From the NCBI GenBank assembly GCA_015064155.1, contig SVST01000006.1, positions 1 to 64,000 on the forward strand: DNA of 64,000 bases. The letters are read 5' to 3'. The notes below the pieces were generated by a model that had not been told where the DNA came from, made no database searches, and saw only the letters and a program-made list of their open reading frames with translations. Below, in pieces: positions 3-11,561 of the stretch; the first letter of the stretch is position 1, and each line of letters begins with the position of its first letter. Position numbers and translations under genes: made by a program. Source of the DNA: Oscillospiraceae bacterium (GTDB lineage: Bacteria > Bacillota > Clostridia > Oscillospirales > CAG-272).

Positions 3-290
3 ACAGTTCAACCACTTGTAGAGAACGCTATCAAGCACGGCATCACAAAAAAAGCAGAGGGTGGAACAATCAAAATATGTACTTATGAGGAAGATACGAA
101 TTACATCATTGAGATTATTGATGACGGTGTGGGATTTGATACCGATGCAACCGAACGTCACGTAGGACTTCAAAACGTTCGAAGCAGGATTGCCGCGATG
201 TGCAAGGGCGAATTGAGCATAAAAAGTACGATAGGCGTAGGAACGAGGGTAAGAATTGAAATACCGAAAAAGAAAGGACACAAAAGATGA
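3..290 (+). CDS. Sensor histidine kinase, C-terminal ATPase end (partial)
   Basis: The gene enters from the left edge of the window. Reading from base 3 gives 95 residues. They start with a VENAIKHG N-box and contain a D-D-G-V-G-F G1-box (IIDDGVGFD) and a G-x-GLQNVRSRI region followed by GVGTRVRIEIP. This is the HATPase_c fold of LytS/YpdA-type kinases, which typically lack a classical H-box context and pair with the response regulator next door. Its stop codon overlaps the ATG of the response regulator (ATGA at 287-290), so the two are translationally coupled. The sensor domain and the phosphorylated histidine lie outside the window, so the signal cannot be guessed. Confidence 0.88.
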   Translation, partial: TVQPLVENAIKHGITKKAEGGTIKICTYEEDTNYIIEIIDDGVGFDTDATERHVGLQNVRSRIAAMCKGELSIKSTIGVGTRVRIEIPKKKGHKR

Positions 291-1089
291 ATATTTGGCG
301 GTTGATGATGAATATTTCGCACTTGAGCTGTTGAAGAATGCGCTGGAAGAGGTAGCGGGCGGCTCTACCGTTTATCTCTGTCGCGACGTGCGCAGCGCAT
401 TGGATACCGCGCAAAAAAATAAGATAGACGTTGCCTTTCTCGATATTCACATGCCCGAAATGAACGGCATTGAGCTGGCAGGCAAGCTGAAGCAACTCAA
501 TCCCAAGGTAAATATCGTATTTGCCACGGGGTTCTCCGAGCACATGAAGGAAGGGATCGATCTGCGCATCAGCGGCTACTTGTTAAAGCCCGTCACGGCA
601 AGCGCAATCAAAACCGAGCTTGAAAATTTGAGAAACCCGATTGAATGGAATCGTGAAAAACGAATCAAAATTCTGACGTTCGGAAATTTTGACGTTTTTA
701 TTGACGGAAATCTCCTCAAATTCGAAAGGAAGCAAGCAAAAGAAATCTTAGCCTATTTGGTGGATAAGCGAGGAACGTCGGTGTCCTACCCCGAGCTTGC
801 GGCAATGCTGTGGGAGGATGAGGAATACGACCGCACAAAGCAGAAAAATCTGCAGGTGTACGTAGCAAGTCTTGTAAAAACGCTGAACGCTACCGGAATC
901 AATGACTTGATTTTAAGGAACAGACAAGGACTCCTTGTAAACACCAAGATTGTGGATTGCGACTATTTCCGTTTTTTGGAGGGCGACACACGAGCCATCA
1001 ACTCCTTTACGGGTCAATACATGAGCGCATACTCGTGGGCTGAATTTACGGTTGGATACTTGGAAACCCAGATACAAAAAATCAAATAA
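287..1089 (+). CDS. Response regulator with SARP-like winged-helix output; apparent frameshift at the start
   Basis: The protein has a receiver domain (about residues 1-120) with the acidic pair in AVDDE, a phospho-acceptor Asp in FLDIHMPEMNG, and a KP pair in YLLKPVT. A winged-helix domain follows (FGNFDVFIDGN, then LAYLVDKRG and ELAAMLWED), with QKNLQVYVASLVKTL and a short tail ending WAEFTVGYLE. This resembles the AfsR/SARP (BTAD) output domain in shortened form. The natural start is the ATG at 287, which overlaps the kinase stop and sits 8 bases after AAAGGA. From there, however, the frame is broken: M-N-I-L-A-V-D-D-E needs one more T in the run at 293-296. As it stands, the reading frame is open only from a TTG at 256. 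This may be a real mutation or a sequencing error. The regulator probably controls the promoter at 1155. Confidence 0.85.
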
Positions 1090-1095
1090 TCCCGA

Positions 1096-1137
1096 TTGGC
1101 ACGGAAGCAAAAAAATTGCATCCGTGCCAACTTTTTT
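1096..1137 (+). terminator. Intrinsic terminator after the two-component pair
   Basis: The arms TTGGCACGGA (1096-1105) and TCCGTGCCAA (1121-1130) pair perfectly and are followed by a T-run at 1132-1137. It separates the two-component genes from the SipW locus. Confidence 0.85.
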
Positions 1138-1154: not shown

Positions 1155-1187
1155 TGTAGTCAGGGTGTAGTCACCGCATGGTAAAAT
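1155..1187 (+). promoter_or_regulatory. Candidate SARP-type promoter of the SipW locus
   Basis: Two identical heptamers TGTAGTC lie at 1155-1161 and 1166-1172, separated by 4 bases (11-base period). A -10-like TAAAAT follows at 1182-1187, and there is no good -35 box. Heptameric direct repeats 11 bases apart, with the second about 8 bases before the -10, are the known layout of SARP activator sites. The upstream response regulator has a SARP-like output domain, so direct activation is a fair inference. Confidence 0.6.
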
Positions 1188-1226: not shown

Positions 1227-1245
1227 GGGCGGTTAGGGAACGCCC
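1227..1245 (+). promoter_or_regulatory. Hairpin in the leader of the SipW operon
   Basis: GGGC/GCCC and GTT/AAC arms with a bulged G and an AGGG loop form a compact hairpin. A T-run at 1253-1258 follows after seven other bases, so it is a poor terminator. It may be a weak attenuator or a stabilising leader hairpin. Confidence 0.4.
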
Positions 1246-1278: not shown

Positions 1279-1830
1279 ATGAAAAGAAGAAGAACAATTA
1301 TCACTTCCCTGTTGCTCATCGCTGCACTTGCACTTGGAATCGGTTATGCAGCCATTACGGGATCCTTGATCGTCGACGGTAAGGTAGTCGCTGCCGCACA
1401 GCCCTTTAACGTCCACTTCATTGCCTTTGAAGCGGGCACCGGAACCGGTGTTCTCAGCAACATTCCCGAGGTTTCCTGTGACACGACCCTGAGTGAAACC
1501 AATCCCGCAAAGAGCATTATGCTGAACGTCAGAAACATGGCGTCCGACGGTGACACGGTTTCTGCAACCTTGACCATCAAAAACGATAATGACTGTGATA
1601 TGTACGTCAGCGTAGACACCATTCTTTACGGTGAAACCGCAGGAACGGCAACCTCCGCAACCCCCAACTACTTCACCGTTACCACCGACTGGACCGCAGC
1701 CAAGAAGATCGATAAGGGTGCTACCGCAACCATTAAGGTCACCATCGAGATGGATAAGTCCTGCACCGAGGACTACACCGGCTACTTCAGAGTAACCCTG
1801 AACGGCACTTCTGTTGCGCCCACTCCGTAA
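1279..1830 (+). CDS. Exported protein with SipW-type signal peptide (TasA/camelysin-like)
   Basis: The 183-residue protein begins with basic residues (MKRRRT), a hydrophobic stretch and the G-I-G-Y-A-A-I-T-G-S-L motif typical of SipW-dependent signal peptides. Cleavage is probably near GYA. The mature part is a beta-rich domain of about 150 residues, rich in Thr and Ala, with an S-A-T-L-T-I-K-N-D strand pattern resembling TasA/camelysin-like extracellular fibre or matrix proteins. GGAG lies upstream of the ATG at a suitable distance. It is the first gene of the locus and is followed 65 bases later by the dedicated signal peptidase. That layout (substrate beside SipW) matches the tapA-sipW-tasA logic of Bacillus. 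Whether it forms fibres cannot be told from sequence. Confidence 0.75.
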   Translation: MKRRRTIITSLLLIAALALGIGYAAITGSLIVDGKVVAAAQPFNVHFIAFEAGTGTGVLSNIPEVSCDTTLSETNPAKSIMLNVRNMASDGDTVSATLTIKNDNDCDMYVSVDTILYGETAGTATSATPNYFTVTTDWTAAKKIDKGATATIKVTIEMDKSCTEDYTGYFRVTLNGTSVAPTP

Positions 1831-1895
1831 TTGCTTACGGACTGCATTCGCTGAATAAAGCAAAATTCTAAATGATTTGGAAAGGAGGAGCAGAG

Positions 1896-3017
1896 ATGAA
1901 CAAAGACAAAAAAACACTATATATCATATCTTTTACCATTCTTGCGCTCCTCCTCTCCGCATTGTTTTGGGACGTTGGAAGCAGCAAGATCGTTGCCGTA
2001 TGTCTGCTGATCCCGTTGACCTTTGCAACCTGCTTTTTCATTCGAAAAAGGCATTCGTTGTCGATCAACAAAAAAGAGGTTCTGCTTCTGTCCGGTGTGA
2101 TAGGCGTTTTATACGTTGCTCTGTATCAAATGACCGGCTTCTTCCTTTCCTTTTACGAAAATCCCTATTTCGTAACTGCGGAAAGCCTCTATAGCGTCAT
2201 TCTTCCAACCGCCCTCATCATCATCTTAACGGAAATCATCCGATCGGTTCTTTTGGCGCAAAACAATCTGCTCGTCAGCGCGATAACCTACTTCTCTTGC
2301 GTCATTGCAGAGGTGCTGATTTTTTCCAACGTTGCGGGAATTACAAGCTTCTATCGGTTTATGGACCTGATAGGTCTTACACTTCTGCCCGCAATCACGG
2401 CAAACATCTATTATCACTACGTTTCCAAGAGATACGGCATGATGCCAAACATCCTATTTCGGTTGATTACCACCCTTTACGTTTATTTTTCTCCCTTGAT
2501 TACGAGCTTGTCCGATTCGCTGACCTCGTGTATCAAGATCATTCTGCCGATTATTTTACTCTCGTTTGTATCGGCTTTGTTTGAAACAAAGAAGAAAACG
2601 GCTGTAAAAAAAGGCAAAAAGCTCGGTGCGCTCGCCACAGTACTAACGCTGGTGCTTGTGATATCGGTGGCCATGCTGATCTCTTGTCATTTCCGCTACG
2701 GTGCTCTTGTAATCGCAACCGACAGTATGACGGGCGAAATCAACAAAGGCGACATGATAATCTACGAACGCTACGACGGGCAACCAATCCAAGAAGGACA
2801 GGTCATTGTCTTTCTTCAATATGAATCCAAAATTGTCCACAGAGTTGTGAAAATAGAAAATATCGGTGGAGAAACCCGTTACTACACAAAGGGGGACGCC
2901 AACGAGGATCTTGACTCGGGCTACAGAGTAGCCTCCGATATTTTTGCATTAACCGATGTAAAGCTCTCATTTATCGGCTACCCCTCTCTGTGGTTGAGAG
3001 AAATCTTAAAAAGCTAA
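1896..3017 (+). CDS. SipW-like (ER-type) signal peptidase fused to a polytopic membrane domain
   Basis: I place the start at 1896, behind AAAGGAGG, giving 373 residues. The first 260 or so residues hold about seven or eight hydrophobic segments. The last 110 residues are a signal peptidase I domain of the ER/archaeal type (S26B): the nucleophile is Ser277 in TDSMTGEINKGD, and the general base is His315 in KIVHRVVKI instead of the usual bacterial lysine. K-G-D-A-N-E-D and the acidic residues after it fit the third conserved block. SipW enzymes process the unusual signal peptides seen in the two flanking substrates. The long N-terminal membrane domain is not part of classical SipW, which has about 190 residues. 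It might serve as a scaffold or transport-linked module. Confidence 0.82.
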   Translation: MNKDKKTLYIISFTILALLLSALFWDVGSSKIVAVCLLIPLTFATCFFIRKRHSLSINKKEVLLLSGVIGVLYVALYQMTGFFLSFYENPYFVTAESLYSVILPTALIIILTEIIRSVLLAQNNLLVSAITYFSCVIAEVLIFSNVAGITSFYRFMDLIGLTLLPAITANIYYHYVSKRYGMMPNILFRLITTLYVYFSPLITSLSDSLTSCIKIILPIILLSFVSALFETKKKTAVKKGKKLGALATVLTLVLVISVAMLISCHFRYGALVIATDSMTGEINKGDMIIYERYDGQPIQEGQVIVFLQYESKIVHRVVKIENIGGETRYYTKGDANEDLDSGYRVASDIFALTDVKLSFIGYPSLWLREILKS

Positions 3018-3035
3018 AGAAAGGAGGTTACAGAC

Positions 3036-4817
3036 ATGTCTGAATCCGAGAAGAAAAAACGCGGACTATATCGCAAAAACCGTGAAAAATGGATCTTTGC
3101 ACAGTCGGTGATTGTCGCAGTCGTTGCAATCGCGATACTGATTTCTTCGCTGGTTTCCCATCAGCTCTCGAAAAAGTATTATATCGGATACAAAGAAGGC
3201 GGCAACATTGATTACGACGTGTATTTAAAGGAAAACGACTTTTACGATTCCCCGTATCTGGATAAGAATCAATCCTACGTCGCGTCACTGATCGACAGAA
3301 TCATTACGAATTTCAGTTATGAAATCGACATGGATACGGCAAACGTAAATTACCGTTATTCTTATACCATCAAATCCAGACTTGAAATTATCGACGATAC
3401 GTCCGGGGCTGCGATTTACAATCCCGAATATGAGCTGATCAACGTACAAAACAAGCTACAGAACAGCTCAAGCCGATTGACTGTCAACGAGATCGTCGTT
3501 TTGAAATACGATGAATACAACGATCTTGCCAACCGTTTTTTGGATACGTACGGTTTAAGCGCTACGACAAGTAACATTGTCCTGACGTTGACCGTTGACG
3601 TTTTAAGCGATTGTAACGCGTTTTCCGGAAGCAGCGTCGATACGTATTCCTCCGAATTACGTATACCTCTGACAACACAAACGGTCAATATTCAAATGAC
3701 ATCATCGGTCCCCGCCGCAGAAACCAAAATGATTGCCTGCACACGGGGTGCCGGCAGCGAAGTCTTCAAAACAACAGCGATTGTGCTTGGTGTGATCGAT
3801 GCTTTGCTGATTCTGCTTCTCGTTGCGTTTATCTACCTGACAAGAACACCCGATATCACCTATACTGCGCGTGTGAAGAAAATCATGTCGCAGTACAAAT
3901 CCTATATCCAAAGGATCAAGAATCTCTTTGAAACAAACGGTTATCAGGTTATTGTGGTTGATACCTTTGACGAAATGCTTGAAATCAGAGATACCATCCA
4001 GGCTCCCATCTTGATGTATGAAAATGAGGAGAAGACCTGCGCCAAGTTTATGATCCCAACCGACAGCAAGCTTTTGTATCTGTACACAATTACAATGGAA
4101 GGATACGTTGAGCCGGAAGTACCGCAGAAAGAAGAAGCTGTTCCCACGATGATTGTAAAGCCGAACATTACCAATTTGGTTCGTCCCGTGGTAAAGGTCG
4201 TGGTAACGCCCCCGACCCCCAAGCCGGAGCCGGATCCCGAACCGGACCCCGAACCCGAAATCGAAACGGTGATTGAGGAGGCAGAAGTTGAAATCGTGGC
4301 AGAAGACACCGAGATTCCGGAAGTGATTGCCACCGTTGAAGAAGCGGAGCCCGAGGCAATTGCAGAAGAGCCCGTGGAAGAGCCCGAGGTGATTGCTACC
4401 GTTGCCGAACTGGAAACGGAACCCGAAAATCCCGAGCCCCTTGCGGAGATCACCGAACCGGAGCCCGAAGAAAAGATCGATGAGATTCTGGCAGCCATTC
4501 CCTCCGCGGACGATGAACTGATTGCAGAAAACATGGTAGAAGCGATCGATATTTTCTGGGAAGAACGAAAAAACAAAATTTATCGCTACGATCCGGATGG
4601 AAATATCGTAGAACAAGGGGACATCGTTCTGGTACCCACACGGGACGAGGCAAGTGATAAGGATATCGTGCGTGAAGCCGAAGTTTCTCGCGGTAACTAC
4701 AAGGTCGATGCGGCAACTCTTGACCGCCCTCTCAAAAAAATTATCGGAGTCGTCAAACGTAAAGCGGAGCAAATCTTCACCGCTATGATTACTCCCACCG
4801 AAGAAAAAGAAGATTAA
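3036..4817 (+). CDS. DUF5305-like membrane protein with long acidic cytosolic tail
   Basis: This protein of 593 residues follows a strong AAAGGAGG site. It has one membrane segment near residues 20-42, then about 200 residues of predicted extracytoplasmic beta-rich domain with N-F-S-Y-E-I and N-Y-R-Y-S-Y strands, then a second membrane segment near 247-270 (LGVIDALLILLLVAFIY). This matches my memory of DUF5305, a family found beside SipW-type signal peptidases in archaea and clostridia. The C-terminal 320 residues should be cytosolic. They include a small folded piece (about 285-365) and a Pro/Glu-rich low-complexity stretch (about 395-490). Its position between the peptidase and a substrate suggests a role in export or assembly of these proteins. 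The exact function is unknown. Confidence 0.7.
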   Translation: MSESEKKKRGLYRKNREKWIFAQSVIVAVVAIAILISSLVSHQLSKKYYIGYKEGGNIDYDVYLKENDFYDSPYLDKNQSYVASLIDRIITNFSYEIDMDTANVNYRYSYTIKSRLEIIDDTSGAAIYNPEYELINVQNKLQNSSSRLTVNEIVVLKYDEYNDLANRFLDTYGLSATTSNIVLTLTVDVLSDCNAFSGSSVDTYSSELRIPLTTQTVNIQMTSSVPAAETKMIACTRGAGSEVFKTTAIVLGVIDALLILLLVAFIYLTRTPDITYTARVKKIMSQYKSYIQRIKNLFETNGYQVIVVDTFDEMLEIRDTIQAPILMYENEEKTCAKFMIPTDSKLLYLYTITMEGYVEPEVPQKEEAVPTMIVKPNITNLVRPVVKVVVTPPTPKPEPDPEPDPEPEIETVIEEAEVEIVAEDTEIPEVIATVEEAEPEAIAEEPVEEPEVIATVAELETEPENPEPLAEITEPEPEEKIDEILAAIPSADDELIAENMVEAIDIFWEERKNKIYRYDPDGNIVEQGDIVLVPTRDEASDKDIVREAEVSRGNYKVDAATLDRPLKKIIGVVKRKAEQIFTAMITPTEEKED

Positions 4818-4851
4818 ATTCAAATCCAACAAGAAAGGTGAGTGATATACA

Positions 4852-6339
4852 ATGAAAAACTGGAAAGTCAGTGTAACTTGTATTTTGCTTGCCTTTCTTT
4901 GCTTGGCATCTTCCCTCGGCTATGCCGCAATTTCAGACTCAATGCGAGTAAGCGGCTCGGTAAAAACCGACGTTCCCTACGGCTTATTTATCACAAACGT
5001 CGTTACCATCGGGCAGACGAACACCGACAGCCAGTCAGTCAGCTTTCTTCCCTACTCCACCACGCTTGACTCCACCATCAACCGAAGCAACAGAGGTGCC
5101 GCAACGGTTACCTATCGAATCACCGTTCTCAACAATACTTCCCTGACCTACTCTTACAGAAACATTTACTATCAAACCGATCTGACAGGCTATAACGGAA
5201 ACAATTATATTGCAACCTCACCCGCAAATTCAAAAATCGGTGTTGTTTGCGCTTTGGCGAGTGCATCCTCCGAGGACAAGAAGGTCGCCCCGGGGGAAAC
5301 CATGACCTTTACCGTTACCTACACGGTTGGAACAAGCAGAAGTGCCAACAGTGATTGGAAAACTCTGATCAACTTCCAGTTCGGTATCAACGTTGACGGC
5401 GAACGGGAGGCACTTGCTGTGGTTGAAGATAAATTCCTCAAAATTTTGAATACAACGTCCACCTACGAGCAGCTCATTGATGCTCTGGACAATAAATTCG
5501 ACGGACGTCAGGAATGGACGTCGAACTATATCGGAAACGTAACCGGCTCCTCCAGCGAGGACTCCATGGCGGTTAACACGCTATTTGCCGGTCAACTGCA
5601 AATAACGGTTGGCACGGAGCAGCTGGACGCAACCGTTTTGATCAAACACGAAAATCTGGACCAAAACAACCTTACGGGAGATGATTACGTTGCAACAAAC
5701 TCTTCCAATGGAGGTGTTTTCAGGGGATACGGGTGTGAAATGACGCTGTATCTCACCATCGACCCGCTAAACCGCGCCGGTGCTTACGTACCCGTATATG
5801 CCGTGGTATTTACCTGTGACCGGGATGAAAGCGGTAATATATCCGGTAATTGGTACAGAATCGGAAGCATGTATGCAGGTACTGCAAACGTAGTTACCTA
5901 CGACGGCGGAAACGGAACGGGATCGTTCGTTACCGACAACTGGATCGCGGATGCCGCAACCTATCAACTCATTGACGGCTATTCGTTCACCATCGGCAGT
6001 GAAACCTACCTGCTTGACACCTATTCACACGTCGTTGCACAAGGTGACAGCATCAAAAAGATCGTGGTCACTCAGGATGCGACAGCAATTACAACCCTGC
6101 AAACCCTTTTGAATCATGCAAAGAAAATCACCGACAGTGCCGATTACGCGGGGATTGGAATCGAACTGGTGCAGGAGTGCTACGAGAAGTTTAGCAATCT
6201 TTATACGGTAGACGCAAGCGGCAATCATACCGTAGATGCCGACTTGACGATTGCGCAGCTTTCTCCAGCCATTTTGGAGCTTTATCAAGTCGTGAACGAT
6301 GCACTGGTTAAAATCAACGAGTTGATAAACGCATCGTAA
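4852..6339 (+). CDS. Large exported protein with SipW-type signal peptide
   Basis: The protein of 495 residues begins MKNWKVSVTCILLAF and continues with S-S-L-G-Y-A-A-I-S-D-S, the same A-A-I-(S/T)-(D/G)-S signature as in the first gene of the locus, so it should be a second substrate of the same peptidase. Residues about 30-180 look like a TasA/DUF-like beta sandwich (T-V-T-Y-R-I-T-V-L-N-N-T). The rest is Thr/Asn/Gly-rich, with no transmembrane anchor, LPxTG or lipobox visible, so it is probably released or built into a surface layer or fibre. A hairpin and T-run (6388-6440) end the operon. Confidence 0.72.
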   Translation: MKNWKVSVTCILLAFLCLASSLGYAAISDSMRVSGSVKTDVPYGLFITNVVTIGQTNTDSQSVSFLPYSTTLDSTINRSNRGAATVTYRITVLNNTSLTYSYRNIYYQTDLTGYNGNNYIATSPANSKIGVVCALASASSEDKKVAPGETMTFTVTYTVGTSRSANSDWKTLINFQFGINVDGEREALAVVEDKFLKILNTTSTYEQLIDALDNKFDGRQEWTSNYIGNVTGSSSEDSMAVNTLFAGQLQITVGTEQLDATVLIKHENLDQNNLTGDDYVATNSSNGGVFRGYGCEMTLYLTIDPLNRAGAYVPVYAVVFTCDRDESGNISGNWYRIGSMYAGTANVVTYDGGNGTGSFVTDNWIADAATYQLIDGYSFTIGSETYLLDTYSHVVAQGDSIKKIVVTQDATAITTLQTLLNHAKKITDSADYAGIGIELVQECYEKFSNLYTVDASGNHTVDADLTIAQLSPAILELYQVVNDALVKINELINAS

Positions 6340-6441: not shown

Positions 6442-6492
6442 GTGAAAAAGCTTTGGAAGCAGAGCTTTTCCCCTTTTTCTTTGAAAAAGCAC

Positions 6493-7976: not shown

Positions 7977-10900
7977 TTATTTGAGTTTTACGGTGCCGTC
8001 CGAGCAAACCACCTCGGTTGCGGGGACGTTGTAGTTCCAATCGGGACCCTTTGAAATTGCATTCCACTCGACAACCGTGCCTTGGAACGTGATGCTTGTA
8101 AGGCTACTGCAATTATAGAACGCATATTTTCCGATGCTCGTGACGCTGTTCGGAAGCGTAATACTTTCGAGGTGACTACAAGAAGAAAACGCAAAATCAC
8201 CGATGCCAACCGTATTATCGCGTAAAGTTACAGATGTTACGGCAGTATCGCAATCAATTGCCCATTTGTCTACGTAAAATATCCCGCCTTCTTTCTTGAT
8301 TAGCATTCTGCAACCATCAAACGCATCAAGACCGATTTTCGTGACACTGTCAGGAATCGTGATGCTTGTCAGTCTACTGCAACCCCAGAACGCAGAAGAG
8401 CCGATGCTCGTGACACTGTTTCCAAGCATGATGCTTGTAAGACTTGTGCAATCCTTAAACGCAGCATCACCGATGTGCTTGACACTGTTCGGAATTGCGA
8501 TGCTTGTCAGGCTATTGCAAGAATTGAATGCTCCACAACCGATGCCAACCGTATTCTCGCGTAAGGTTACAGACGTTACCGAGGAAACATAACCAATTAC
8601 CCATTTGTCTACGTAAAATATATCGTTTTCTTTCTGTATCAGCTTTGTACAACCATAGAACGCAGAATCGCCGATGCTCGTGACACTATCAGGAATCGTA
8701 ATGCTTGTAAGGCTACTGCAACGAGAGAACGCAGAATCGCCGATGCTCGTGACACTATCAGGAATCGTAATGCTTGTAAGGCTACTGCAACGAGAGAACG
8801 CAGAATCGCCGATGCTTGTGACACTACCAGGGATAGTGATACTTGTAAGGCTACTGCACCTACGGAACGCAGAATCGCCGATGCTTGTGACACTACCAGG
8901 GATAGTGATGCTTGTAAGGCTACTGCAACCATAGAACGCTTCATAGCCGATGCTCGTGACACTTCCGTCGGTCGGGGTTACGCTGTTTTTGCATCCAGCA
9001 ATCAAGGTTTTGCTTGCCGTTTCAATCAAACAGTTGCCGGCGGAATGGTAGGTTTTGTTGCCGGCTTCAACGGTGATGCTTGTAAGGCTACTGCAATCAG
9101 CAAACGCCCCATCACCGATGCTCGTGACACTGTTCGGAATCGTGGTGCTTGTAAGGCTACTGCAACCATCGAACGCAGAATAGCCGATGCTCGTGACACT
9201 ACCAGGGATAGTGATGCTTGTAAGGCTACTGCACCTACGGAACGCAGAATCGCCGATGCTCATGACACTTCCGTCGGTTGGGATCACGCTGTTTTTGCAT
9301 CCTGCAATCAAGGTTTTGCTTGCCGTTTCAATCAAACAATTGCCGGAGGAATGATAGGTTTTGTTACCTGCTTCGACCGTGATACTTGTCAGACCATTAC
9401 AACCGGAGAACGCCCCCATATCTATGCTCGTGACGCAGTTGCCAATCGTGATGCTTGTAAGGCTACTGCAATTAGAGAACGCAAACATTCCGATACTCAT
9501 GACACCGTTGGTTCTGATTGTGATGCTTGTAAGGCTACTGCAATCAGAGAACGCCCCATCGCCGATGCTCGTGACACTGTCCGGAATCGTGATGCTTGTA
9601 AGGCTACTGCAATCAGAGAACGCATTCCATCCGATGCTCGTAACACTATTCGGAATTGCAATGCTTGTAAGGCTATGGCAACCATAGAATGCCCCTATAC
9701 CAATGCTCGTGACACTTTCGTCTGTCGGGACCACGCTGTTTTTGCAGCCTGCGATCAAGGTTCTGCTTGCTGTTTCAATCAAACAGTTGCCGGTGGAATG
9801 ATACGTTTTATTACCTGCTTCAACCGTGATGCTGGTGAGGCTACTACAATAACGGAACGCATGATCACCGATGCTCATGACACTGTTTGGAATTGTGATA
9901 CTTGTAAGGCTACTGCAACCATCGAACGCAGAATCGCCGATGCTCGTGACACTGTTCGGAATCGAGATACTCGTTAGGCTATCGCAACTAGAGAACGCAT
10001 AACCACCAATGCTCGTGACACTATCAGGGATAGTGATGCTTGTAAGGCGATAGCAACCAAAGAACGCACGATAGCCGATGCACGTGACACAGTTTGGAAT
10101 CGTGATACTTGAAAGCCAATGGGACACAAGGAATGCATCCTCGCCGATGCTTGTGACAGGCAATCCCTTGTATTTTGCGGGGATATTAACCGAGGTGGCA
10201 TTGCCGGTGTAATCCTTTACGTAGTACGCTTTGCCGGATTTTTCGAACACCAAGCCTACATCGGTGTACGAATCTTCGCAAACCTCGCATTTGTCGTCGG
10301 TTCCATAGGAGTGTCCTCCCGGTGTTACAATTGTTTCGGTAATACTGTCGCCGCAAGAGCAGGTTTTCGTTTGCTTGCCGTCTGTGAAGCATCCCACGGG
10401 GGTAATTACGGAAACTTCCGTATATTCATGAACATGTGGAGGCTCCGTTTCTTCGGGGTCCTCGTCGGAAGTTTCGGGTTCTTCGGCGGAAGATTCGGGC
10501 TCTTCGGAGCTTGTGGGCTCTTCAACAGAAGACTCGGGCTCCTCAACGGAAGACTCGGGCTCTTCTGAAGTTTCGGGTTCCTCGGAAGTTTCGGGCTCCT
10601 CAACGGAAGACTCGGGCTCCGCAGAAGTTTCGGGCTCTTCAACGGAAGACTCGGGTTCCTCGCAAGTTTCGGGTTCTTCTATGGAAGACTCGGGTTCCTC
10701 GGAAGTTTCGGGTTCTGCAACAGAAGACTCGGGTTCCTCGGAAGTTTCAGGCTCCTCAGCGGAAGACTCGGATTCCTCGGAAGTTTCGGGCTCTTCAACA
10801 GAAGACTCGGGAACTTCTACGGAAGACTCGGGTTCCTCAACGGAAGACTCGGGCTCTTCAACAGAAGACTCGGGTTCTTCGGCGGAAGTTTCGGGTTCTT

Positions 10901-11480
10901 CGGCGGAAGTTTCGGGTTCTTCGGCGGAAGTTTCGGGTTCTTCTACGGAAGACTCGGGTTCCTCGGAAGTTTCAGGCTCCTCAGCGGAAGACTCGGGTTC
11001 CTCGGAAGTTTCGGGCTCTTCAACAGAAGACTCGGGAACTTCTACGGAAGACTCGGGTTCCTCAACGGAAGACTCGGGCTCTTCAACAGAAGACTCGGGT
11101 TCTTCGGCGGAAGTTTCGGGTTCTTCGGCGGAAGTTTCGGGTTCTTCTACGGAAGACTCGGGCTCTTCAACAGAAGACTCGGGCTCTTCAACAGAAGACT
11201 CGGGCTCTTCAACGGAAGATTCGGGCTCCTCTACGGAAGATTCGGGCTCTTCAACGGAAGTTTCGGGTTCTTCAACGGAAGACTCGGGCTCTTCAACGGA
11301 AGACTCAGGTTCTTCGGAACTTTCGGGTTCTTCGGAACTTCCCGGCTCCTCCGAGCTCGCCGGTGCATCTGTCGTCACGTCATTTGTTGTTTCGTCGTCG
11401 GTTTTGTTTTGCTCTGCGCAGCCAACCGCCAACACACAAACAAGCAGACACATCAACAACACCCAAAACAGTTTTTTCAC
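7977..11480 (-). CDS. BspA-like leucine-rich-repeat surface lipoprotein with (S/T)-E-E-P-E stalk
   Basis: I choose the GTG at 11480, behind GAGGAG, giving 1167 residues. The signal peptide ends in a lipobox (LAVGC, Cys21), so the protein is anchored in the outer leaflet of the membrane. Residues about 43-345 are a low-complexity stalk made of P-E-(S/T)-S-x-E-E units. A Cys-containing HVHEYTE...CSCGD...[12 protein letters not shown] segment follows, and then about 27 TpLRR/LRR_5 units of the type [23 protein letters not shown]. Three long insertions with [28 protein letters not shown] interrupt the repeats. BspA-like proteins are often adhesins. The actual ligand is unknown. A paralogue with the same ends lies at 32431-34548. 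Confidence 0.93.
10450..11360. repeat. Tandem repeat array coding the P-E-S/T-S-x-E-E stalk
   Basis: About 900 bases of imperfect tandem units of 18-21 bases (6-7 codons). Higher-order copies exist: the block around 10780-10960 is nearly repeated around 11020-11150. Unit lengths are multiples of three, so gain or loss of units would keep the frame and alter stalk length. Confidence 0.9.
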
Positions 11481-11532
11481 GTCTTTTCTCCTCGTGTCAA
11501 TAAAATTGGAACGTAAAATGCTTTCCAAACTC

Positions 11533-11561
11533 ATTCTATCACATCTTTCGAAAAATGTCAA
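11533..11561 (-). promoter_or_regulatory. Promoter of the BspA-like gene
   Basis: On the minus strand TTGACA (11561-11556), 17 bases, TAGAAT (11538-11533). The predicted leader is only about 45 bases. Confidence 0.75.

Follow-up and report, generated by a model that had tools for sequence, protein, structure and literature searches.

Is a SipW locus whose signal peptidase carries an additional membrane domain, and which contains a DUF5305 protein, an ordinary secretion operon, or does it represent a distinct export and assembly system? The question is raised by positions 1279-6339 of a 64,000-nucleotide stretch (hereafter the window) from an Oscillospiraceae bacterium, comprising the first 64 kb of the 118.5-kb contig SVST01000006.1 of a draft genome (assembly GCA_015064155.1; 2.14 Mb, estimated 86% complete). 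Four genes are arranged here on one strand, encoding a small secreted protein (S1, 183 amino acids (aa)), the fused SipW (373 aa), the DUF5305 protein (593 aa), and a larger secreted protein (S2, 495 aa), with intergenic gaps of 65, 18, and 34 bp and ychF as the next gene. A first-pass annotation of the same DNA had recognized this gene content and proposed an undescribed export/assembly system. The solid result of the present analysis is that the fused SipW and DUF5305 pair reciprocally, and the locus is a variant of the SipW/TasA kind that most likely serves as a fibre export and assembly unit.

The fused peptidase and its DUF5305 partner

The peptidase gene (1896..3017, forward strand) encodes 373 aa from an ATG codon, consisting of an eight-helix membrane domain (residues 1-232), the SipW membrane helix (241-263), and a catalytic domain of the endoplasmic reticulum (ER)/SipW type (to residue 373). 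Residues 246-364 match TIGR02228 (1.7e-20; 73.5 bits against a cut-off of 51.85), and residues 247-343 match human SEC11C (5.8e-8) in an alignment that runs through S277, H315, and D334. Among 98 sequences, Ser277 is present in all 98, His315 and Asp334 in 97 each, and Asp340 in 94. By these alignments, the enzyme is assigned to the ER/SipW type with a predicted Ser-His(-Asp) site, whereas the equivalog for Bacillus SipW (NF046067) scores 48.4 bits, below its curated cut-off of 190.

The additional domain (1896..2591, forward strand) had been described as about seven or eight membrane segments fused in front of SipW. Both the fusion and the estimate hold, as the predicted structure contains eight helices ahead of the ordinary SipW membrane helix. 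Glu113 and Arg116 of this domain are invariant (98/98), and the Glu-x-x-Arg pair sits in helix 4; CPBP enzymes carry a Glu/Arg motif at the corresponding helix. In a structure search with the predicted peptidase, SpdC and Rce1 were the sole multi-pass proteins, by title, among the 50 matches listed. Comparison with CPBP proteins (a set covering 19 of 30 loci) revealed no significant sequence relation, and a Pfam search with the SipW N-terminal domain (76 members) returned S26 in 76, S24 in 72, and otherwise stray matches among the 25 of 62 families listed. By predicted structure, and without sequence support, the domain thus resembles SpdC and Rce1 and may have a CPBP/Abi fold.

With regard to the distribution of the locus, 147 genomes were searched, including the genome of origin. 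The full-length fusion was found at no less than 36% identity in this genome and eight relatives, and one further genome holds two divergent copies (24-25% identity). The order S1-SipW-DUF5305-S2 is kept in all eight near relatives, S2 of L035 being recognized by position and signal peptide rather than by BLAST; therefore, the locus is not a chance string of open reading frames (ORFs). The wider DUF5305 scan agrees with this conservation, on which the first-pass proposal had been made to depend. It covered the best 79 of 114 candidate loci, which their record titles place in Clostridia and gut Bacilli. A SipW frame occurs in 76 of these 79 loci, and all 75 complete ones (369-401 aa) carry the extra domain. 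Exceptions are one locus cut by the contig start (L085), two that begin at a contig edge (L070 and L129), and L080, in which a serine-recombinase gene occupies the site expected for the 5′ part of the DUF5305 gene and for the genes next to it. The SipW-DUF5305 gap is -60 to 150 bp in 73 of the 75 loci with both frames called, and -88 and 191 bp in the remaining two; the DUF5305 frame of L075 had been dropped by the ORF filter and was recovered by tblastn. An S1-type gene lies upstream of every complete SipW gene (75/75): 65 were detected by profile, one of them 1062 bp away and the other 64 within 150 bp, and the remaining 10, whose frames the filter had dropped, by tblastn. Downstream of DUF5305, substrate-profile matches occur within 200 bp in 52 loci and at any distance in 54.

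The pairing also holds in the opposite direction. A profile of the extra domain only (E 0.001 or better) matched the genome of origin and 20 others of 398 in the phylum. All 20 matches are SipW fusions, with open frames of 387-423 aa, one of which is cut by the contig end. DUF5305 follows on the same strand in 19 of them, and the twentieth contig ends 2 bp after SipW. In those 19, the distance to DUF5305 is within 140 bp in 16 and amounts to 842, 3971, and 4028 bp in the rest, with substrate-like genes between. In one of the phylum-level loci, the DUF5305 protein matches the whole of PF17231 (1.6e-41), and a camelysin (PF12389) reaches the Pfam cut-off in the cluster. On the other hand, ten ordinary-SipW loci (5-19 kb each) gave no DUF5305 match at E 0.01; they come from 9 of the 29 genomes with catalytic-domain-only matches, and in three of them (L044, L047, and L048) the ORF filter called no SipW frame. 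The extra-domain search and these loci rule out the domain as a common part of ordinary SipW, an objection that the first-pass annotation had itself raised.

The fused SipW-DUF5305 system is uncommon: DUF5305 was detected in 7 of 295 genomes of the order and the fusion in 3 of 34 genomes of the same genus. A tblastn search with two queries found no DUF5305 in plasmids. The genome of origin contains one DUF5305 match and one SipW-type match. Descent of all fused SipWs from a single fusion is not upheld by a 121-column tree, in which the fused forms of gut Clostridia and Bacilli cluster at 0.985 and other fused forms fall outside, not cleanly apart from ordinary ones.

Several variants of the locus were observed. 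In L080 (8126-11176), the DUF5305 gene is present only from about residue 179, directly preceded by the recombinase (Resolvase, Recombinase, and zinc ribbon), as if a mobile element had inserted. In the wider fused-SipW clusters L191 (4247-12160) and L192, SipW and DUF5305 are separated by several substrates; L191 additionally encodes a Big_3/Big_1 domain protein and a response regulator of the LuxR type. Duplicated parts include two DUF5305 genes in L118 (6004 and 9893), two S1-like genes in L130 (2312 and 3532), and two S2-like genes in L053 (11741 and 12770).

The pairing bears directly on the view that this is an ordinary SipW/TasA locus with ornament, in which only the peptidase counts and both DUF5305 and the extra domain are accessory. 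The catalytic domain is of the normal ER/SipW type, and SipW loci that do not contain DUF5305 occur in relatives as well as on haloarchaeal and Enterococcus plasmids and in Acetoanaerobium, as far as neighbours were scanned or annotated. However, the fusion and DUF5305 pair reciprocally across Clostridia, gut Bacilli, and other Bacillota, and E113 and R116 are invariant in the extra domain. Features kept so strictly argue against ornament, and this view is considered unlikely.

The DUF5305 protein and the regulator of the operon

The DUF5305 gene (3036..4817, forward strand) encodes 593 aa, of which residues 139-340 score 38.6 bits with PF17231 (cut-off 29 bits), in agreement with the earlier assignment. 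PF17231 is matched at E 0.5 or better by 59 of the 64 aligned DUF5305 proteins (the window and 63 of 78 called frames, after removal of those that were very long, cut, or broken). The family may be mainly haloarchaeal.

The protein had been taken for a bitopic one, which proved to be a misreading: its predicted structure has two long helices, at residues 3-44 and 238-268, with a beta domain (47-236) between. The second membrane helix is followed by a domain at 272-353, a disordered Glu/Pro linker (~360-495), and a C-terminal domain (~497-587). Judging from helices and charges, the beta domain would lie outside and the domain 272-353 inside the cell. The long Glu/Pro-rich tail of the first-pass annotation is thus present, and is predicted with low confidence; the domain behind it, which is conserved and well predicted, had been missed. 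This C-terminal domain (4524..4796, forward strand) may resemble the PriA N-terminal domain (PF17764) by structure only (alignment of 26 of 34 members; PriA comparison set, 25 of 30 loci), and its sequence gave one weak kelch match among solved structures. In L032 (10611-12863), the tail has an extra module of ~150 residues inside the Glu/Pro linker, and tail lengths differ again elsewhere.

Searches of solved structures with DUF5305 sequences yielded one weak match in one search and two in another, none meaningful. TasA and signal peptidase subunits were absent among the 50 matches listed in fold searches, which says nothing about DUF5305. Near-identical members were thinned in two further alignments, A9 (50 of 76 kept) and A10 (22 of 64 kept). 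A relationship of DUF5305 to TasA was ruled out, with profile values of ~1-2% against the TasA set and 17% over 31 columns against S1.

Upstream of S1 lie the 3′ end of a histidine kinase gene (3..289, forward strand; HATPase_c, PF02518, 1.3e-12) and a response regulator gene (256..1089, forward strand). The kinase is represented only by its last 95 residues because the contig begins there; a full-length relative (L032:6658-7923) is a PF06580/HATPase_c kinase. The regulator has a receiver domain that passes its threshold (PF00072, 1.7e-21) and a weak OmpR-type winged helix below the cut-off (PF00486, Trans_reg_C, 2.8e-5; 24.6 against 26.2 bits), and its orthologues in three near relatives are 66-82% identical. 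Accordingly, the two-component pair of the first-pass annotation exists, but the kinase is incomplete and both genes fall outside the 1279-6339 interval to which they had been assigned. The true start of the regulator is uncertain. In relatives it begins MNILAVDDEY..., and the counterpart ATG in the window, at 287, does not share the reading frame of the regulator; in the 256-300 region, the frame is open only from an upstream TTG, which is either a real difference or an assembly slip. A hairpin with a T run (1096..1137, forward strand; -22 kcal/mol, z -5.8), absent from the list of a simple consensus scan, probably acts as an intrinsic terminator that separates the regulator gene from the S1 operon. 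Another terminator-like hairpin follows S2 and precedes ychF (6446..6469, forward strand); only the consensus scan found it, and shuffled sequence yields, on average, about as many sites of this kind as the region does.

Between the regulator gene and S1, a conserved direct repeat, TGTAGTC-N4-TGTAGTC with an 11-bp period (1155..1172, forward strand), forms a putative operator before a -10-like box, TAAAAT (1182-1187). The repeat is exact in the window and in 14 of the 79 loci, every copy lying upstream of S1, and no other copy occurs on either strand in 1.32 Mb of those loci. L057 has one mismatch, and the remaining 54 S1 upstream regions tested have at least 4. The genome of origin (2.1 Mb) contains one exact copy; its sole other match, with 2 mismatches, is at chance level because a backwards control pattern gives five. 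The repeat is placed where the regulator would touch the -35 region of the TAAAAT box, and a simple scan lists no sigma-70 promoter at 1155-1187, which may be expected of an activated promoter.

A regulator orthologue accompanies the operator in 13 of 15 loci, with at least 66% identity in full-length matches; no regulator was found in the DNA covered for L054 and L056, only its last 52 residues are present in L071, and that of L065 is encoded at another place on the opposite strand. In L091, where the regulator shares 35% identity, visual inspection showed a different repeat with an equal period, TTTGT.ACGC, ahead of a TACAAT box. A conserved, single-copy operator is therefore good evidence for a dedicated two-component regulator that would have one target, and we infer that the regulator binds the repeat and activates transcription. 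The dedicated regulator postulated earlier is supported in this way, and the site itself is an addition to that account.

The leader before the S1 ribosome-binding site contains a predicted hairpin (1227..1245, forward strand) with an AGGGA loop that is invariant in 14 aligned leaders (of the 15 with an exact operator; that of L065 is unlike the others and was omitted). Each of its five stem pairs forms in 12 to 14 of the 14 rows, with modest covariation. In Rfam, the best match to the leader had an E-value of 0.12 (21.7 bits against a gathering score of 55). The AGGGA loop and the AAGGAG ribosome site might together be recognized by an RNA-binding regulator, for example CsrA.

The architecture of the DUF5305 protein also allows a sensor or feedback receptor to be envisaged, whose outer domain would detect unassembled subunits or finished fibres and whose inner domains would signal on, with the kinase or operon translation as possible targets. 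Such a role is compatible with the two membrane helices and the folded domains predicted on either side, with variable inner tails (one with an inserted module), and with a kinase-regulator pair that adjoins the locus in the closest relatives. In addition, SpdC, the best structural match of the fused domain, has been described to bind 10 of 16 Staphylococcus aureus kinases via its membrane helices (PMC5854430). However, DUF5305 accompanies the fused SipW even in loci that yielded no orthologue of the window regulator, for example those of Bacilli (the search was limited to that regulator), and is therefore tied to the peptidase rather than to the regulator. A sensor is accordingly regarded as quite unlikely.

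The secreted proteins S1 and S2

S1 (1279..1830, forward strand; 183 aa) is a small SipW-type secreted protein and, as a TasA/camelysin-like protein, the probable main fibre subunit. A profile of 55 S1 proteins (54 of 66 called frames plus the window) aligned with TasA/CalY proteins collected from PF12389 matches (a camelysin set covering 25 of 30 loci) at 94-96% along its length, signal peptides included. The mature-only profile gave 41-85%, and reversed and shuffled controls 0.3% or less. In Pfam, no family, PF12389 included, was above cut-off for S1, and a sequence search of solved structures gave 23 weak matches (best E 0.036), TasA not among them. The relation of S1 to TasA/camelysin, as suggested by profile alignment, is accompanied by the conservation of Leu30 and Gly34 directly past the cleavage region, as expected for an exchanged strand.

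S2 (4852..6339, forward strand; 495 aa) begins with an S1-like domain (residues 1-164), followed by a remainder that belongs to no known family. The S1 and S2 profiles (the latter from 41 of 62 frames plus the window) aligned at 98.3% over 153 columns, and the S1 profile matches S2 at 5.5e-11. S2 had no Pfam family above cut-off and no sequence match among solved structures, and its own profile gave no match to the TasA set. S1 and S2 are the only S1-profile matches in the genome of origin.

It is also conceivable that, instead of fibres, S1 and S2 form an S-layer-like coat or act as secreted adhesins. S2 differs widely in length among loci, and its C-terminal part has no known family. However, the profile links S1 to TasA/CalY, TasA has been described to form fibres (PMC9674648), and the conserved Leu30 and Gly34 fit strand exchange; a coat or adhesin is thus decidedly improbable.

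Beyond the locus, the window encodes on the reverse strand (7977-11561) a 1194-aa BspA-type leucine-rich-repeat protein (LRR_5, 1e-174) with a lipoprotein-like start, which carries a long run of E-E-P-E-(S/T)-S repeats.

A candidate fibre export and assembly unit

The most likely reading, with about an even chance of being right, is a fibre export and assembly unit in which DUF5305 serves as the assembly platform. Briefly, the two-component system would switch on the operon, its regulator binding the 11-bp direct repeat and activating the S1 promoter. S1 and S2 would exit with their SipW-type signal peptides, which the fused peptidase would remove outside the membrane with its Ser-His(-Asp) site. 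The eight-helix domain would be a membrane scaffold, probably a non-proteolytic CPBP-like one, that holds the peptidase beside the DUF5305 protein. The outer beta domain of the latter may receive or anchor freshly cut S1 and S2 and start assembly, taking the place of TapA in B. subtilis, while its inner domains would tie the platform to the cytosol. S1 would polymerise by giving its N-terminal strand to the next subunit, and S2, which begins with an S1-like domain, could be a tip, base, or adhesive subunit. These steps follow known precedents: TasA fibres have been described to assemble by donor strand (PMC9674648), TapA has been reported as the starter of TasA fibres (PMC10151520), and BsaA polymers as needing SipW and BsaRS (PMC7395162).

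That the fused domain is instead an active CPBP-type intramembrane protease, cutting remnant signal peptides or a membrane regulator in a two-protease enzyme, is highly improbable: its predicted CPBP-like fold and invariant Glu-x-x-Arg in helix 4 would suit such an activity, but no conserved His was seen in the aligned helices, the Glu-Arg spacing is unlike that of CPBP enzymes, and SpdC is described as acting as a binding partner (PMC5854430).

The nearest known relatives place the fibre unit among SipW systems while setting it apart. Like the window locus, B. subtilis tapA-sipW-tasA places a SipW-type peptidase next to two substrates, one of them its own small secreted protein, and S1 is TasA-related by profile. 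The B. subtilis SipW is not known to carry an eight-helix domain. The window locus differs in the DUF5305 protein between peptidase and S2, and in the two-component pair that adjoins it, in contrast to the use of SinR in B. subtilis (PMC9674648). The sipW-bsaABCRSD locus of Clostridium perfringens likewise combines SipW with a secreted protein that forms polymers, further secreted proteins in accessory roles, and a two-component system on which expression depends (PMC7395162); compared by description only, its accessory genes are described as secreted proteins, and neither a fusion nor DUF5305 is mentioned in the part of that account drawn on here. With regard to SpdC of S. aureus and CPBP/Abi proteins such as Rce1, the window domain is instead fused to a signal peptidase, and its sequence is not significantly related to CPBP proteins.

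The eukaryotic signal peptidase complex shares with the window locus a SEC11-type catalytic domain and a catalytic subunit beside a membrane partner with an outer beta domain. The accessory subunits of that complex are membrane partners of this kind. Among solved structures, DUF5305 profiles matched no signal peptidase subunit by sequence, and the window enzyme, unlike the complex, is encoded in one small operon. Haloarchaeal plasmid SipW clusters also combine an archaeal-type signal peptidase with proteins annotated as SipW-dependent-type; in contrast to the window, no extra N-terminal domain was present in the six peptidases tested, and no DUF5305 was found among 16 proteins scanned from six loci. 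One substrate of such a cluster (L278, 8957-9808) consists mostly of acidic EDGEADEEG-like repeats behind a SipW-type signal peptide.

An undescribed export/assembly system, as first proposed, is only partly supported, because C. perfringens already provides a known case of a SipW operon with a two-component system of its own (PMC7395162), the topology of DUF5305 had been misread, and the membrane organiser and surface fibres of that proposal are inferences. The pairing of the fusion with DUF5305 is conserved, and no description of it was found: the open-access literature searched names DUF5305 nowhere, nor SipW together with CAAX. The locus is nevertheless a variant of the known SipW/TasA kind rather than a wholly separate system. 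New features are the operator, the fusion, and the strictness with which the fusion pairs with DUF5305.

Tentatively, the CPBP-like/SipW fusion and DUF5305 may possibly constitute a permanent membrane apparatus that builds donor-strand fibres in bacteria with a single membrane, in which the scaffold would hand cut subunits to the outer domain of DUF5305 as an usher-like platform for assembly and anchoring with a cytosolic read-out. If this is true, cleavage would be coupled to assembly, and such a division of labour is not described for TasA systems in the literature consulted. DUF5305, a family of unknown function, gains a concrete pathway and a testable role. Across Bacillota, a different solution appears, in which a peptidase with a built-in membrane domain is paired with a DUF5305 protein, and gut commensals gain a candidate surface-fibre system that comes with a regulator of its own and an operator present at a single site.

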